From an uncultured Prevotellaceae bacterium (GTDB lineage Bacteria; Bacteroidota; Bacteroidia; Bacteroidales; Muribaculaceae): a stretch of DNA of 64,000 nucleotides. Positions 57,541 to 64,000 of this stretch are shown here, piece by piece. Both the position numbers and the translations under genes were made by a program. The notes beneath the pieces are model-generated. The model had not been told where the DNA came from and did no database searches. It was given only the letters and a program-made list of their open reading frames with translations. The stretch covers positions 26,562 to 90,561 of the forward strand of contig ONGE01000015.1 of assembly GCA_900317325.1 (NCBI GenBank). The letters run 5' to 3'. The first letter of the stretch is position 1, and the number at the start of each line of letters is the position of its first letter.

Positions 57541-57706
57541 GTCATTATTATAGAATACAGCAAATTTCATGCCACATCAGGATTGATTTGCCGCTGTCCG
57601 CCCCCCTGTTCATCATGTGAATGTGCATCAAACTGCCGATTGAAGATTTTTCAGCACAAGAGGCATAAAAAACAATAAAAAGTAAGCATTGCTCAAAAAA
57701 AAGCAG

Positions 57707-57714
57707 TATTTTTG
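57707..57714 (+). promoter_or_regulatory. TAnnTTTG element 7 bases before an ATG
   Basis: TATTTTTG followed by CATCATA and the ATG at 57722. It rules out the in-frame start at 57689 and predicts an almost leaderless mRNA. Confidence 0.65.
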
Positions 57715-57721
57715 CATCATA

Positions 57722-60574
57722 ATGAGAAAACGCGCTGGCATACAATACTTGAAGCGATTCCTGACACACCTGCTGCTGGCCGCTATACCGCTGATTGCCT
57801 TTCACCTGCCGATGCGAGGCGAGACGGTGGATTCATTGTACCTTGTTTTCATTAATGCCGAGGCCGGCCAGAGGCCCGACCTCGTGAATGCCGTGTCACA
57901 ACACCTCTACAAGGAACAAATCACCGACACACTGTACCAATGCGACAAGTCCACCAAGGACAACATGGTGGAAGCCATCATGCATTACCTCATGGCTGAG
58001 CATTACTATGACATGGGACAGTATGAAAACGCGCTCACCGAGGGTGAGAAAGCCCGCGACGTGATGGACAAGAAAAAACCGTCCAAGTTCCAGAGCGACG
58101 TGATGGGAATGCTCAGCAATGCCCAATACAGGATCGGAGACTATGACGAAGCCCTCAAGACCCTTCTCACGGCCTACGAAATCGACAAGAAACTCAACAA
58201 GCCCGAACTCATCAGCAGCGACTTGCACACGCTGGCAGCGATATACCTGGCAGTTGAACAACCCGTTCAAGGTATCCAATATGCCGAAAAAGCCATCGCC
58301 ATTGAGCGGAAACTCAATCGCACCGACCGTCTGGCAACAAGATTGGGACTGGCCAGCGAACTGTACCTCCTTAACAACGAACTCAACAAAGCCATCGCTG
58401 CCATCAACGAAGCCTACAAGATCGACAAGAAAGACCCTCGGCCCGAGAAAGCAGCCATCAGAATGGTGCAGATGGGCACTGTGTTCGAGGCGATGGGCAA
58501 ATTGAGCGAAGCACAGCAAATCATAGAGCAGGCCATTCCCACGCTCAAAAACAACGGTATCACCTACTCTCTCGCTATAGCTTACAACCAGCTTGGCAGC
58601 ATCAAACTCAAGACAAACAATCAGCAGGAAGCCATCGACTACTACAAGATGGCACTGGAACAAAGCATCAAATGCGGCTCCCCCAAGGTGGAGCGCATCG
58701 CCGAGCGCGGCTTGTGGGAGGCCATGCGAGAAAGCAATCCTAAAGGGGCACTGCTGCATCTGGAACGTTACTCTGAGCTCAATGACTCGATGGTGTCCGA
58801 GATGGCTGCAACACGCATCAAGGTCATCGAGACCACCAACCAGATCACCGAGCAGACCGAACTCGACAATAAAAACAAGCTGTTCATGCAAGTGTTGAAA
58901 TGGGGAGGTTTCGCTCTGGTGACCATGCTGGTGGCTCTCCTGGCTGGAGTTTTATACTCACGTCGCAAGGTCAATAATGCATTGAGGATACAACAGCAGA
59001 CACAAGACTTGAGAAACCGCTTCTTCAACAATATCACTGTCAAACTGCAGAATCCCCTATCGGTCGTGATGGGCGCCGGCCAGCAACTGCTCTCCAGCAG
59101 CAAGACCAATGCCGAGGAGAAGCGGCTGGGTGAGATGATTATCAACCACGGGCAGAACATGCTGGGACTGGTCAATCAACTGCTGGATATCGAGAACATT
59201 CAAACAGCCATCGAGAAACCCGATCTCAAGCGAGGAGACATCATGATGTTTGCCAGATTGCTGGTCGACAACTATACCGATGCGGCCCAACAGAAACTGA
59301 TTAATCTGGAATTCCTCTCGCCTGTCCACTCCCTGATGGTGACCTTTGCTCCCGATTACCTGCGCAGGATTCTACACATCCTCATCGATAATGGCATCAA
59401 ATTCACGCCACGCAACGGCAGAGTCACTGTCAAAATGACACCCATCGAATCCTCACGAATGAGACTCGAGGTTTCAGATACCGGCAAGGGGATTCCCACC
59501 GAAGAGATCAACCGCCTGTTTGAACCCATGACCCAGTCGATGAATGGCGATGACGGTGTGGACACAAGTCTGGGATTGTCGCTGGTCAATCAGATTGTCA
59601 ACGCGATGAATGGCACCATCAATATCGACAGCCACTTGGGACAAGGTTCCTCGTTCACCATCGAGTTCCCCGTCCGATATGACGAAGACCCTGCACAAGA
59701 CACAACAAGTGACAGCCACACGATGGCCGAGAATCTGATACGCCAACCCAAGAACGGCAAGCACAACCCCCTGGTGTTCATTGTCGAGAACAACGACGAT
59801 GTGGCCTTCTTCATTGCCAGCCTGCTCAACAAGAAATATAACCTGAGGTTTGCACGCGACGGGCAAGAAGCGTGGCAAACAGCCCAAGACATGGTGCCTG
59901 ACCTGATCATCAGCAACATCATCATGCCTGTCATGGATGGAAAACAATTAATCCAGAAAGTGCGCAACAGTGCATCCCTCAACCACATTCCCATCATCGC
60001 CCTGACCAACAGCAACAGCGAAAAAGAGCGATTGGCATGCCTGCAGGCTGGTGCCGATATCGTGCTGGTTAAACCGTTCAACTCCGATGAGTTGTGCCTA
60101 CAAGCCGAGCACCTCATCGAGCAACGGATGATGCTGCGCGAACGCTATCAGAAAGCAAGCGGCGCCGTGCCGGCCGATTCAGGTGCCAAACCGATGAGTA
60201 AGGAAGATCAAGATTTCATCAATAAACTCGTTGACATTATACATGTCCACATGACCAAAGAAAATGCCGACCTTGACATTGACAGCATTGCAGCAGCCTT
60301 GTCCTTGAGCCGCAAACAACTGCGCAACCGCATCGCGTCAATCACCGGCATGACCACAGTGGCCTTTGTGCTACAGGTGCGCCTGAATTACGCACGGCGC
60401 ATCATCAGCACCGAAGACACTCCCATGACAGCTGTCGCCAACCGTTGCGGTTTCCAGACGCTGTCACATTTCTCCAAAGCGTTTAAGCAACAGTTTGGCG
60501 TCAGTCCACAACAATTCCGCAAAAACATGGACGGCCTGGATTTAATTAACAACCCAAGAATAAGTAGCCAATAA
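57722..60574 (+). CDS. TPR hybrid two-component AraC regulator lacking both phospho-acceptor residues
   Basis: The 950-residue protein has an N-terminal signal or signal-anchor, a TPR-type sensor (about 35-370), and a membrane helix (about 395-415). It continues with a histidine-kinase dimerisation region, an HATPase domain (N box LIDNGIKFTP; G box SDTGKGIP), a receiver (about 680-800) and an AraC HTH (about 830-945). The H-box reads FFNNITVKLQNPLS: the expected His is Val440. The receiver reads DLIISNIIMPVMDG: the expected Asp is Asn732, and the acidic pair is ENN instead of DDN. ATP-binding and DNA-binding parts look intact. It probably signals without a His-Asp relay. Confidence 0.92.
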   Translation: MRKRAGIQYLKRFLTHLLLAAIPLIAFHLPMRGETVDSLYLVFINAEAGQRPDLVNAVSQHLYKEQITDTLYQCDKSTKDNMVEAIMHYLMAEHYYDMGQYENALTEGEKARDVMDKKKPSKFQSDVMGMLSNAQYRIGDYDEALKTLLTAYEIDKKLNKPELISSDLHTLAAIYLAVEQPVQGIQYAEKAIAIERKLNRTDRLATRLGLASELYLLNNELNKAIAAINEAYKIDKKDPRPEKAAIRMVQMGTVFEAMGKLSEAQQIIEQAIPTLKNNGITYSLAIAYNQLGSIKLKTNNQQEAIDYYKMALEQSIKCGSPKVERIAERGLWEAMRESNPKGALLHLERYSELNDSMVSEMAATRIKVIETTNQITEQTELDNKNKLFMQVLKWGGFALVTMLVALLAGVLYSRRKVNNALRIQQQTQDLRNRFFNNITVKLQNPLSVVMGAGQQLLSSSKTNAEEKRLGEMIINHGQNMLGLVNQLLDIENIQTAIEKPDLKRGDIMMFARLLVDNYTDAAQQKLINLEFLSPVHSLMVTFAPDYLRRILHILIDNGIKFTPRNGRVTVKMTPIESSRMRLEVSDTGKGIPTEEINRLFEPMTQSMNGDDGVDTSLGLSLVNQIVNAMNGTINIDSHLGQGSSFTIEFPVRYDEDPAQDTTSDSHTMAENLIRQPKNGKHNPLVFIVENNDDVAFFIASLLNKKYNLRFARDGQEAWQTAQDMVPDLIISNIIMPVMDGKQLIQKVRNSASLNHIPIIALTNSNSEKERLACLQAGADIVLVKPFNSDELCLQAEHLIEQRMMLRERYQKASGAVPADSGAKPMSKEDQDFINKLVDIIHVHMTKENADLDIDSIAAALSLSRKQLRNRIASITGMTTVAFVLQVRLNYARRIISTEDTPMTAVANRCGFQTLSHFSKAFKQQFGVSPQQFRKNMDGLDLINNPRISSQ

Positions 60575-60609: not shown

Positions 60610-60795
60610 ATGCCAACCCCTGCAAAAACAAACAAGACGACTCAAAACGCCGAGTACCAACAAGCAGAACGACTTATCAACCAGAGTATCTCGAACATGG
60701 ATGCCGAGTCCCACATTGAGTATGGTAACACGATGGAGCGAAACAGTCAGCCTTCAAAATGGAAGAAATGGCTGTATAACTTACTGAGTCTGTAA
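60610..60795 (+). CDS. Possible 61-residue small protein
   Basis: A short ATG frame starts 35 bases after the hybrid regulator stop. The product is hydrophilic and Gln/Asn/Thr-rich, and ends in WKKWLYNLLSL, an amphipathic or membrane-touching tail. No promoter element or ribosome-binding site stands out and the family is unknown. It may be a real small gene or a chance frame. The rest of the gap 60575-60899 holds the promoter of the SGNH hydrolase. Confidence 0.35.
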   Translation: MPTPAKTNKTTQNAEYQQAERLINQSISNMDAESHIEYGNTMERNSQPSKWKKWLYNLLSL

Positions 60796-60863
60796 ATGAA
60801 GTGACAGTCATGACATAAGGTTCTTTTTTGACCAAATGATGATTCAAAAACGAGGATAATTTG

Positions 60864-60871
60864 TACCTTTG
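60864..60871 (+). promoter_or_regulatory. TAnnTTTG promoter element for the SGNH hydrolase
   Basis: TACCTTTG followed by GG, 28 bases before the ATG at 60900. Confidence 0.65.
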
Positions 60872-60899
60872 GGCTTTGAATCAAATCATGTATGGAATC

Positions 60900-61589
60900 A
60901 TGAAAAGGTTACTCATTATTACAATGGTATTCTGGAATCTTTTTTTCAATGGAGCAGCCCAGACTCCCGACTGGGCCAATAAAGCACGCTACGCCCAATC
61001 CAACCTCGAACTGCAAGAAGCCCAGCCCGACCCGATGCGTGTCGTGCTCATGGGCAACTCCATCACCGAGTTTTGGGAGGAGACACATCCCGACTTTTTC
61101 AAGAACAACCACCTGGTGGGTCGCGGCATCGGCGGACAAGTGTCGTCTCAGATGCTGGCGCGTTTTCGCCAAGACGTCATCAACCTCAATCCCCGCATTG
61201 TGGTCATCAACTGTGGTACCAACGACATTGCCGAGAACAACGGACCCTATGAAGAAGACATCACGATGGATAACATCAAATCGATGACCGAGTTGGCCAC
61301 GGCTCACGGCATCACAGTTGTGCTCTCGACAGTATTGCCTTGTGACAGTTTCTGCTGGAATCCGTCAGCCAAGGATGTTGTGTCCAAGATCCAGCACCTC
61401 AACCAGCGCATCAAGGAATACGCCGGCCAGCTCCAGTTACCGCTCATCGACTACTATCCCTCAATGAGTGTGGACGGAAGTTCATTGTTCCACGGATATA
61501 CCGAGGACGGTGTGCATCCCAATGCCAGGGGATATGACCAGATGGAAGCGTTGCTCTTGAATATGGTCAACGAACTCAGAAATATGTAA
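60900..61589 (+). CDS. Secreted SGNH/GDSL hydrolase
   Basis: The ATG at 60900 (MKRLLIITMVFWNLFFNGAAQ) gives a signal peptide and 229 residues; ATG 60888 is an alternative. The SGNH blocks are clear: block I GNSITEFW (Asn in place of the usual Asp after Gly), block II around RGIGGQVSSQML, block III NCGTNDIAEN, and block V DGVHPNARGY with the catalytic Asp and His. The family includes carbohydrate esterases and lysophospholipases; here a glycan deacetylase or esterase in the periplasm is likely. The M13 gene follows 53 bases later. Confidence 0.9.
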   Translation: MKRLLIITMVFWNLFFNGAAQTPDWANKARYAQSNLELQEAQPDPMRVVLMGNSITEFWEETHPDFFKNNHLVGRGIGGQVSSQMLARFRQDVINLNPRIVVINCGTNDIAENNGPYEEDITMDNIKSMTELATAHGITVVLSTVLPCDSFCWNPSAKDVVSKIQHLNQRIKEYAGQLQLPLIDYYPSMSVDGSSLFHGYTEDGVHPNARGYDQMEALLLNMVNELRNM

Positions 61590-61642: not shown

Positions 61643-63655
61643 ATGAGAAAAATCACATGCTTAATCATGGTACTCGCAGCCATGGCTGCAGTAGCCAATA
61701 ACGGCATTACCGCTGTTGACCGCAACAATCTGGATCCTCAAACCCGTCCCGGAGAGAATTTCTATCAGTATGCTTGCGGTGGATGGAAACTCAACCACCC
61801 GCTCGACCCGCAGTATGCGCGTTTCGGAACATTTGACCAGCTTGCCGAGAATAGTCGCAATCAGGTCAAGGACATCATCACCACATTGGGCACCAACAAT
61901 CCGCGTGGCAGCATCAAGCAGAAAGTGGGTGACCTCTATGCCCAAGGCATGGACAGCGTGAGACTTAATCAAGAGGGTATGGCCCCGCTGAAAGAAGGCA
62001 TTGACCAGTTCAAGACACTCACTCGCAGCGATTTCATGGCCGCCATTGCCTATCAGCACATGGGCATTGCCGCTCCTTTCTTCAATTCATCGGTGATGGC
62101 CGATCTGAAGGACTCCAACAGCAACATGCTTTACCTCATGCAAGGCGAACTGGGTATGGGAGACCGTGACTACTATCTGGACAATGACGCTAACACCGTT
62201 AAGGTGCGCAACGCTTACATCAACTACATTCAACAACTTTTCCAACTCATCGGTTACAAAAAGGGCAACGCTAAAAAGGCCGCACAGCACATTATGGCCA
62301 TTGAGACGGCTCTGGCTAAGGTGGCCATGACACGCGAGGAGACCCGCGATTACAGCAAGCTCTATAACGTCACCTCGCTGAATCAGCTCAGAGCCGACTA
62401 TCCCAATATCAACTGGAGCCAATACTTTGCAGGACTCGACATCAGCGAACTTGACAAGGTGTGCGTCTTCCAGCCCAAGTCGCTGGCCAAGGTCAACGAG
62501 ATGATGAAGACCCTTAAGGAAGAGGATGTCAGGGAGTACCTCATCTTCAAGTATGTTGACGCCGCAGCACCTTATCTGAGTGATGCCTTTGCCGACGCCA
62601 ACTTCGACATGTACAGCCGTGCCATGTCGGGCAAGCAGGTGAAGATGCCACGCTGGAAACACTCCCTGGATGTGCCTAACACCCTGCTGGGCGAAGCCGT
62701 GGGTCAGCTCTATGTGGCTAAATACTTCCCTGCCGACTCCAAGAAGAAGATGCAACAACTCGTTGACAACCTGAAAAAAGCCCTGGGCGAACACATTGCT
62801 ACCCTCTCGTGGATGAGCCCCAAGACTAAGGTCAATGCTCTGGTAAAACTCAACAGCTTTACCGTAAAGATCGGTTATCCCGACAAGTGGCGTGACTACA
62901 GTGCACTGGACATCGATCCCGGCAAGAGCTATTGGGAGAATATCATGGCTGCACGTCGTTTCCAAGCCGAATATGAATATGCTCAACTGGGTAAACCCGT
63001 TGACAAGGAACGCTGGTTCATGACACCGCAGACCGTCAATGCCTACTACGAGCCCTCGAGTAACGAAATCTGCTTCCCCGCAGGTATCCTGCAAGCGCCC
63101 TACTTCGACCCCAATGCCGACGAAGCCTGCAACTATGGCGCCATCGGCGTGGTGATCGGCCATGAGATGACCCACGGTTTTGACGACCAGGGACGCAACT
63201 TCGACCACAACGGCAACATGGTGGACTGGTGGACGGCCGAAGATGCTGCCAAGTTCCAGGAACTGGCCAATAAGCTGGGTGCGCAGTACAGCGCCGAGAT
63301 TGTTGCCGATGACGTGCATGCCAACGGCACCTTCACTATGGGCGAGAACATTGCCGACCATGGTGGCCTGCGTGTCGCTTACAGCGCATTCAAGAAGACC
63401 GAGCAGGGCAAGGGCGACAAGAAGATTGACGGCTTCACACCCGATCAGCGTTTCTTCCTGAGCTATGCCAACGTGTGGGCAGCCAACATCACTAAGGAGG
63501 AGATGCTGCGCCGCACCAAGGTTGACCCGCACAGCCTGGGCATAAACCGCGTGAATGTAGCCATCCGCAACCTGGAAGAGTTCTTCAACGCATTCAACAT
63601 CCAACCCGAGATGCCCATGTGGCGTGATCCCGCCGACCGCGTCATCATCTGGTAA
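61643..63655 (+). CDS. M13-family zinc metallopeptidase (neprilysin/PepO-like), copy 2
   Basis: The 670-residue protein has a signal peptide and the M13 hallmarks: HEMTH (His507 to His511), third ligand Glu568 in ENIADHGG, FPAGILQAPYFD, and a C-terminal WRDPADRVIIW end. It resembles copy 1 at 36249-38267 along its whole length, but it is not in an ECF-sigma operon. It may be cotranscribed with the SGNH hydrolase. It is probably a periplasmic oligopeptidase. Confidence 0.95.
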   Translation: MRKITCLIMVLAAMAAVANNGITAVDRNNLDPQTRPGENFYQYACGGWKLNHPLDPQYARFGTFDQLAENSRNQVKDIITTLGTNNPRGSIKQKVGDLYAQGMDSVRLNQEGMAPLKEGIDQFKTLTRSDFMAAIAYQHMGIAAPFFNSSVMADLKDSNSNMLYLMQGELGMGDRDYYLDNDANTVKVRNAYINYIQQLFQLIGYKKGNAKKAAQHIMAIETALAKVAMTREETRDYSKLYNVTSLNQLRADYPNINWSQYFAGLDISELDKVCVFQPKSLAKVNEMMKTLKEEDVREYLIFKYVDAAAPYLSDAFADANFDMYSRAMSGKQVKMPRWKHSLDVPNTLLGEAVGQLYVAKYFPADSKKKMQQLVDNLKKALGEHIATLSWMSPKTKVNALVKLNSFTVKIGYPDKWRDYSALDIDPGKSYWENIMAARRFQAEYEYAQLGKPVDKERWFMTPQTVNAYYEPSSNEICFPAGILQAPYFDPNADEACNYGAIGVVIGHEMTHGFDDQGRNFDHNGNMVDWWTAEDAAKFQELANKLGAQYSAEIVADDVHANGTFTMGENIADHGGLRVAYSAFKKTEQGKGDKKIDGFTPDQRFFLSYANVWAANITKEEMLRRTKVDPHSLGINRVNVAIRNLEEFFNAFNIQPEMPMWRDPADRVIIW

Positions 63656-63904: not shown

Positions 63905-63908
63905 TTAG

Positions 63909-64000
<92 letters not shown>

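Follow-up and report, generated by a model that had tools for sequence, protein, structure and literature searches.

Our analysis of the window (the whole 64,000-nucleotide stretch of DNA) indicated that its hybrid two-component regulator (HTCS) belongs to a conserved clade in which neither the kinase site nor the receiver site is complete. Specifically, a complete kinase site (His, N box, and GxGxG) was found in 0/35 aligned full-length clade members compared with 31/32 comparison HTCSs, and a complete receiver site in 0/35 compared with 32/32. On the sequence evidence, the regulator is real, conserved, and functional, and we infer that it is independent of a phosphorelay. It is probably an HTCS-derived, membrane-anchored, and signal-gated transcription regulator from a lineage that gave up phosphotransfer. 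Given that related gut bacteria share the relay-less design, signaling probably proceeds without phosphate. The features of the locus are listed in Table 1.

Table 1 Features of the regulator and its locus (window positions; clade and comparison counts refer to 35 and 32 rows)
Feature	Position	Strand	Basis or count
TATTTTTG promoter box, ATG 7 nt downstream (near-leaderless)	57707..57714	+	
Doubly degenerate hybrid two-component regulator, 950 aa + stop	57722..60574	+	ORF and Pfam
Order in regulator: N-terminal signal/anchor, TPR, one TM, pseudo-HisKA, pseudo-HATPase, pseudo-receiver, AraC HTH	57722..60574	+	
TM (~residues 392-411) and signal region of regulator, predicted			Reading of sequence
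TPR region, residues 85-313	57974..58660	+	TPR_12 E 4.6e-27, further TPR models
HisKA/DHp, residues 431-494	59012..59203	+	PF00512 E 3.4e-08
Val440 codon GTC, phospho-His site	59039..59041	+	
HATPase_c, residues 545-651	59354..59674	+	PF02518 E 1.5e-24
Degenerate G2 box, residues 614-619, DTSLGL for GxGLGL	59561..59578	+	GxGxG 0/35 clade, 31/32 comparison
Receiver, residues 685-792	59774..60097	+	PF00072 E 1.2e-21
Asn690 codon AAC, second acid (Mg2+) site	59789..59791	+	N 31/35 clade; D 32/32 comparison
Asn732 codon AAC, phospho-Asp site	59915..59917	+	
Val781, K-3 switch aromatic site	60062..60064	+	V 35/35 clade; Y/F 31/32 comparison
AraC HTH_18, residues 856-934	60287..60523	+	PF12833 E 1.3e-21
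Arg870 for conserved recognition-helix Lys, S/CHIP-DK motif	60329..60331	+	R 35/35 clade; K 29/32 comparison
61-aa small protein, directly 3' of regulator	60610..60795	+	Pfam match none
GDSL-type hydrolase, likely start 60900, own TACCTTTG box 60864-60871	60861..61589	+	PF13472 E 4.9e-25; synteny
M13-family metallopeptidase	61643..63655	+	PF05649 E 2e-120; synteny

The open reading frame of the original prediction, its length, its domain order, and the residues Val440 and Asn732 were all confirmed by the codons and by Pfam. By Pfam, a sensor is followed in the same chain by HisKA, HATPase, receiver, and AraC HTH, an arrangement that is the architecture of an HTCS and joins DNA-binding and two-component domains in a single protein. 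The TM is predicted from our reading of the sequence, where a hydrophobic stretch (~392-411) divides the TPR part from the kinase part. With regard to the acceptor His and Asp within complete sites, which also mark an HTCS, no clade member carries the set (0/35 complete). The kinase part would be classed as a pseudo-histidine kinase (His missing in 29/35, G2 box broken in 35/35) and the receiver as a pseudo-receiver of the subset without Asp (Asp missing in 34/35, the query included, and no site complete).

Both relay residues were present in 31/32 comparison HTCSs and in 0/35 clade rows. The His site of the clade is occupied by Asn (19 rows), His (6), Gln (3), Arg (2), Lys (2), Val (1), Thr (1), or Ser (1), the Asp site by Asn (27), Ser (4), Asp (1), Thr (1), Glu (1), or Ala (1), and the second acid site by Asn (31) or Asp (4). 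In all six rows with His, Asp is absent and the G2 box is broken; the sole full-length row with Asp (L024) carries Asn440 and Asn690. As for the two copies that are not full-length, the G018 copy combines Asn440 and Ser732 with a broken G2 box, and one piece of the G020 copy has Asp, Asn690, and a broken G2 box while its other piece has Asn440. The N and G boxes had been described as intact; this does not hold for all of them, considering that G2 reads D614-T-S616-L-G618-L and that all three Gly occur in 0/35 clade members. The N box Asn is present in 31/35 clade rows. The acidic pair had been called altered, and this was right for Asn690, where the acid is lost, but not for E689, a position with E or D in all 67 rows. 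Other parts of the receiver site are kept, with Lys784 in 34/35 clade and 32/32 comparison rows and Thr762 in 35/35 clade rows.

A nearby, shifted location of the true acceptors is excluded, since the register is fixed by the near-invariant Pro445 (35/35 and 32/32), Gly740 (35/35 and 32/32), and Lys784. Sequencing error is also excluded, given that other assemblies have the same kind of change; a relative at 94% (L023) reads Asn440/Asn690/Asn732. In the available text of PMC12632262, the published background is 0.9% (722/76,471) for HisKA domains without His and 2.0% (3,111/152,269) for receivers without Asp. These low rates, together with the 31/32 comparison HTCSs that have His and Asp, argue that the residue losses are not due to chance. 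Overall, 20 positions conserved in the comparison HTCSs (≥29/32) were lost in the clade (≤17/35); eight of these are in or beside the His, G2, and receiver sites (H440, R443, G614, G616, G618, D690, D732, and A763), and one more, K870, belongs to the REC-HTH motif. The 70-row alignment omits L052, L053, and L002 (duplicates), L003 (distant), and the pieces L061, L065, and L066 (G018, G020), and its 32 comparison rows are a subset of the remaining genus matches, with many of the weaker rows, mainly from the L092 family, outside the set. A long-branch HTCS in G023 (L091) has Asn at the His site, altered G1/G2 boxes, and a complete receiver site, and is a pseudo-kinase whose receiver is seemingly live.

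The clade with the same substitutions that was to be sought by alignment does exist. Orthologs were identified in 37/101 genomes of the same genus (49-94% identity), comprising 35 full-length copies and those of G018 and G020. The sequences support the conserved, phosphorelay-independent subfamily envisaged in the original prediction, and we infer its mechanism. All 35 full-length frames are open (927-1008 codons, stop to stop), and most are ~50-60% identical to the query. The G018 copy lies in two frames owing to a frameshift in the HK-receiver linker, possibly an assembly error, and the G020 copy is spread over two contigs (55% and 61%). Goat and roe deer are the sources of the named relatives, which are Muribaculaceae assemblies. 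In samples of 397 family genomes (E 1e-130) and 247 order genomes (E 1e-95), the matches outside the genus were limited to four at 30-32% identity: G538 has one, and G179 and G268 together have three (L121-L123), which were intact when scored.

The 35 clade rows formed one group (SH-aLRT 100) on a long stem (0.76), and the clade had a support of 100/100 in a careful tree with 14 of the 35 rows. In a group of three relatives (L062/L063/L069) that have N440, S690, and A732, the G2 box is still intact and the switch Tyr still present. In the AU test, the clade was compatible both with this group (p = 0.464) and with L064/L067/L068 (p = 0.239), so the losses may be shared or separate. L062 and L063 sit in a different gene context from the clade regulator. 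The nearest intact relatives (L117, L118, and L119 in G004, G043, and G044) are located near a gene that, by eye, has a class II fructose-bisphosphate aldolase-like N-terminus.

The near-leaderless promoter is real and conserved. A TAnnTTTG box was located 5' of the regulator start in 31/37 loci and not found in 6/37, and the ATG follows the box by 5-7 nt in 25/37 loci and by 9-13 nt in 6/37. Assuming the usual Bacteroidetes promoter spacing, the leader of the regulator is presumably a few bases at most. A recurring TGGCATG-N4-TTGCT sequence lies 5' of clpS on the opposite strand (57559-57574, -), which we take to resemble the sigma-54 -24/-12 consensus; a TAnnTTTG box follows ~19 bp farther on, so that its TTTGC might act as a -33 element instead. 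A further heptamer, CATGACA, occurs 5' of 15/30 clade loci, where the commonest 7-mer in 40 shuffles reached 11 at most and 0/200 shuffles reached 15 for CATGACA. We regard it as a weak lead to a regulatory motif, given that it was chosen post hoc among related rows and is absent in the stretch from the window's own species. CATGACA was not enriched upstream of the GDSL gene (3/21 vs. 1.6 expected).

The target of the regulator was said to be unclear in view of its nearly leaderless promoter and for want of adjacent glycan-utilization genes. This stays true, with none of these genes among the immediate neighbors (ClpS/ClpA, small protein, GDSL hydrolase, M13 peptidase), but a conserved neighborhood that had not been described does exist. 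The regulator and the M13 gene are close and on the same strand in 21/21 ingroup neighborhoods displayed (21 of the 37 loci), with a GDSL match between them in 19/21 (missing in L101 and L128). Divergent clpS and clpA lie just 5' of the regulator in 17/21; L111 and L114 are without clpS, and L113 and L127 have this side rearranged, with an intact HTCS-GDSL-M13 block and a 5S rRNA near the 5' end of the regulator. Nine stretches around other relatives (L115-L123, including the degenerate copies of G055 and G025) had zero matches to these neighbors. In G073, clpS, GDSL, and M13 (90%) are present and the regulator is absent, with ~141 bp separating the clpS match from the GDSL match (L161 9532-9674). 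A ClpA tree of 30 genomes places G073 beside the regulator-bearing G078 (support 99), so this looks like a secondary and clean loss, and the regulator is therefore dispensable in at least one species. A 5S rRNA (63907-64000, -) is truncated by the contig end, and an rRNA operon is probably where the window stops; this may be the reason that many related contigs break off ~3 kb past the regulator.

A small protein is encoded at 19/37 regulator loci. Its profile (18 copies) gave 19 strong matches in the 101 genus genomes, all beside the regulator, and four more that were weak (E 7.6e-4 to 0.008) and located elsewhere. In 397 family genomes (E 1e-6, up to 15 candidates scored per genome), only those same 19 matches were recovered. 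I23, H35, E37, and Y38 are invariant in 18 rows, and the presence of the protein changes 7 times on the tree. Its residues were compared with those of the regulator in 1,137 column tests (best p = 1e-4), with 4 independent pairs on supported branches, which is insufficient for significance.

In typical receivers, the K-3 aromatic couples the receiver site to the output face (PMC12632262, in the text available). The clade has lost this aromatic, and its T+1 position is Ser in 23/35 and Ala in 7/35 rows compared with Ala in 32/32 comparison rows. S/CHIP-DK is described as the inhibitory REC-HTH interface motif of HTCSs in the part of PMC11253607 available, and most of it is kept in the clade (H 34/35, I 33/35, P 35/35, D 34/35), with Lys replaced by Arg in 35/35. 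The query motif is NHIP-DR, and the first position also varies in intact relatives (N in 12/32). The D and K of the motif were placed by the spacing given in that text (PMC11253607), and aligning the sequence to the solved chain 12aw_A gave the same register. That the switch aromatic is gone but the latch surface mostly kept argues against a simple, always-free HTH. An AlphaFold2 model of the window protein (with only L052 and L053 as further rows) had a mean pLDDT of 55.9 and a pTM of 0.35, and is too poor for interpretation of the REC-HTH interface.

Taken as a phosphorelay-independent regulator, the protein would bind a ligand with its TPR part in the periplasm, and the pseudo-HisKA coiled coil would hold the dimer and pass a conformational signal across the membrane. 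The pseudo-receiver may serve as a scaffold to retain or release the paired AraC domains without phosphate, and likely targets would include the regulator's own promoter, the linked small protein, the GDSL hydrolase, and the M13 peptidase. Some points speak against this explanation. Residual ligand or nucleotide binding could account for the kept receiver Lys/Thr and N box Asn, and with its inhibitory REC-DBD motif mostly kept, the HTH is not obviously freed. Moreover, conservation of the TPR-to-TM stretch (314-424), through which the signal would be expected to pass, is below that of the intact paralog (0.43 vs. 0.54). It is conceivable, albeit doubtful, that in this whole HTCS subfamily a purely mechanical membrane switch has taken the place of the phosphorelay, and that the immediately downstream, lineage-specific protein of 61-76 aa (invariant I, H-x-E-Y) acts as a dedicated modulator replacing phosphorylation. 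The link to the small protein is the least expected part of our findings.

Another reading is that of a former HTCS decaying toward a pseudogene under relaxed selection. We compared the regulator with its nearest relative (L052, 94%). The dN/dS (NG86) was 0.097 for the whole gene and 0.174, 0.124, and 0.113 for CA, DHp, and receiver, respectively, with zero amino-acid changes in residues 829-936 (HTH). In six species with both the degenerate protein and an intact paralog (15 species pairs), conservation (degenerate/intact) was 0.68/0.65 for REC, 0.71/0.63 for HTH, and 0.54/0.48 for TPR, compared with 0.55/0.69 for DHp and 0.54/0.63 for CA. The catalytic parts thus look relaxed and the output parts do not, and the receiver and HTH are the best conserved parts of the regulator. 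The variable His site, the G018 frameshift (if not an assembly error), the loss in G073, and the lower conservation of the HTCS (49-62%) than of the M13 neighbor (85-92%) outside the nearest relative are all in line with decay. Nonetheless, the low dN/dS, the unchanged HTH, the 35 open frames, the conserved neighborhood and promoter, and the residues newly fixed in 35/35 clade rows (V781, R870, G184, A760, and C773) largely refute this reading already, and we consider it very improbable.

It is also possible, yet unlikely, that the dead protein tunes a live HTCS or kinase in mixed dimers or bundles, with its HTH being secondary. A complex with another kinase had been suggested; phosphotransfer from such a kinase to this receiver is impossible because the receiver is without Asp and the second acid, which leaves allosteric partnering alone. 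The pseudo-histidine kinase DivL and the sensor-kinase crosstalk model RetS, as far as our sources describe them, would be precedents, and the DHp is retained. One candidate for the partner is the L002/L092 family of intact TPR-HTCSs, which (at ≥50% identity for L092) is present in 36/37 regulator-bearing genomes and has no match in G073 at E 1e-110. This co-occurrence falls within one subclade with apparently vertical inheritance of both genes and hence represents few independent events. Furthermore, G054 (91% complete) has the regulator without the partner, G029 (85% complete) has the partner without the regulator, and the REC and HTH, not the DHp, are best conserved. A relay through other residues, either His476 or Ser/Thr or small-molecule phosphorylation of the receiver, seems highly unlikely. 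His476 in the second DHp helix (59147-59149) is found in 31/35 clade rows where 29/32 comparison rows have Gln, and the receiver retains Lys784 and Thr762. However, the G2 box is broken, no compensating Asp in the receiver pocket was obvious among the acidic columns of the clade alignment, and, by an estimate from the helix hairpin alone, some one and a half turns separate His476 from the level of residue 440.

A phosphorelay-independent regulator of this kind would make blanket annotation of HTCSs as phosphorelays unsafe. Among the open-access matches listed, which is not proof of absence considering that most subscription papers lie outside, we did not recognize an HTCS clade without both sites, and BT4236 was the one HTCS precedent for His loss (PMC11253607, in the text available). 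BT4236 has Gln848 for His, and its authors suggest a phosphorylation-independent mechanism; it is a single protein with a reported His loss and a CSIP-EK motif. Our regulator differs in being a clade in 37 genomes with kinase site, receiver site, and switch all altered. With BT4124, BT4663, and BT1754 of Bacteroides, as described in the same available text (PMC11253607), the clade shares a single chain in which a sensor is followed by HisKA, HATPase, receiver, and AraC HTH, as well as the HIP and helix-6 Asp of the inhibitory motif. Unlike these HTCSs, it is without the His/Asp relay and without glycan genes among the neighbors examined, its G2 box is broken, its switch aromatic is lost, and its motif Lys is Arg.

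Hybrid transmembrane transcription regulators, in the available text of PMC10269533, are membrane-anchored with two-component domains, as is predicted for the clade regulator; that text makes no mention of members lacking the phospho-residues. The described pseudo-receivers and aspartate-less receivers have lost the second acid, the Asp, and the K-3 aromatic, and have a mostly non-Ala/Gly T+1, as in our clade, but the clade pseudo-receiver is fused behind a pseudo-kinase in one membrane protein; how bacterial pseudo-receivers switch on and off is given as an open question (available text of PMC12632262). The clade regulator, with its own HTH in the chain and linked genes at the locus, offers a readout for such switching. 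One genus holds a natural series, from intact relatives through the half-way L062/L063/L069 to 37 genomes with neither site complete. DivL and RetS, as far as we can tell from our sources, are degenerate or non-canonical kinases that exert control without a relay of their own, as proposed here. Both act on separate kinases, whereas the clade regulator carries its own HTH.
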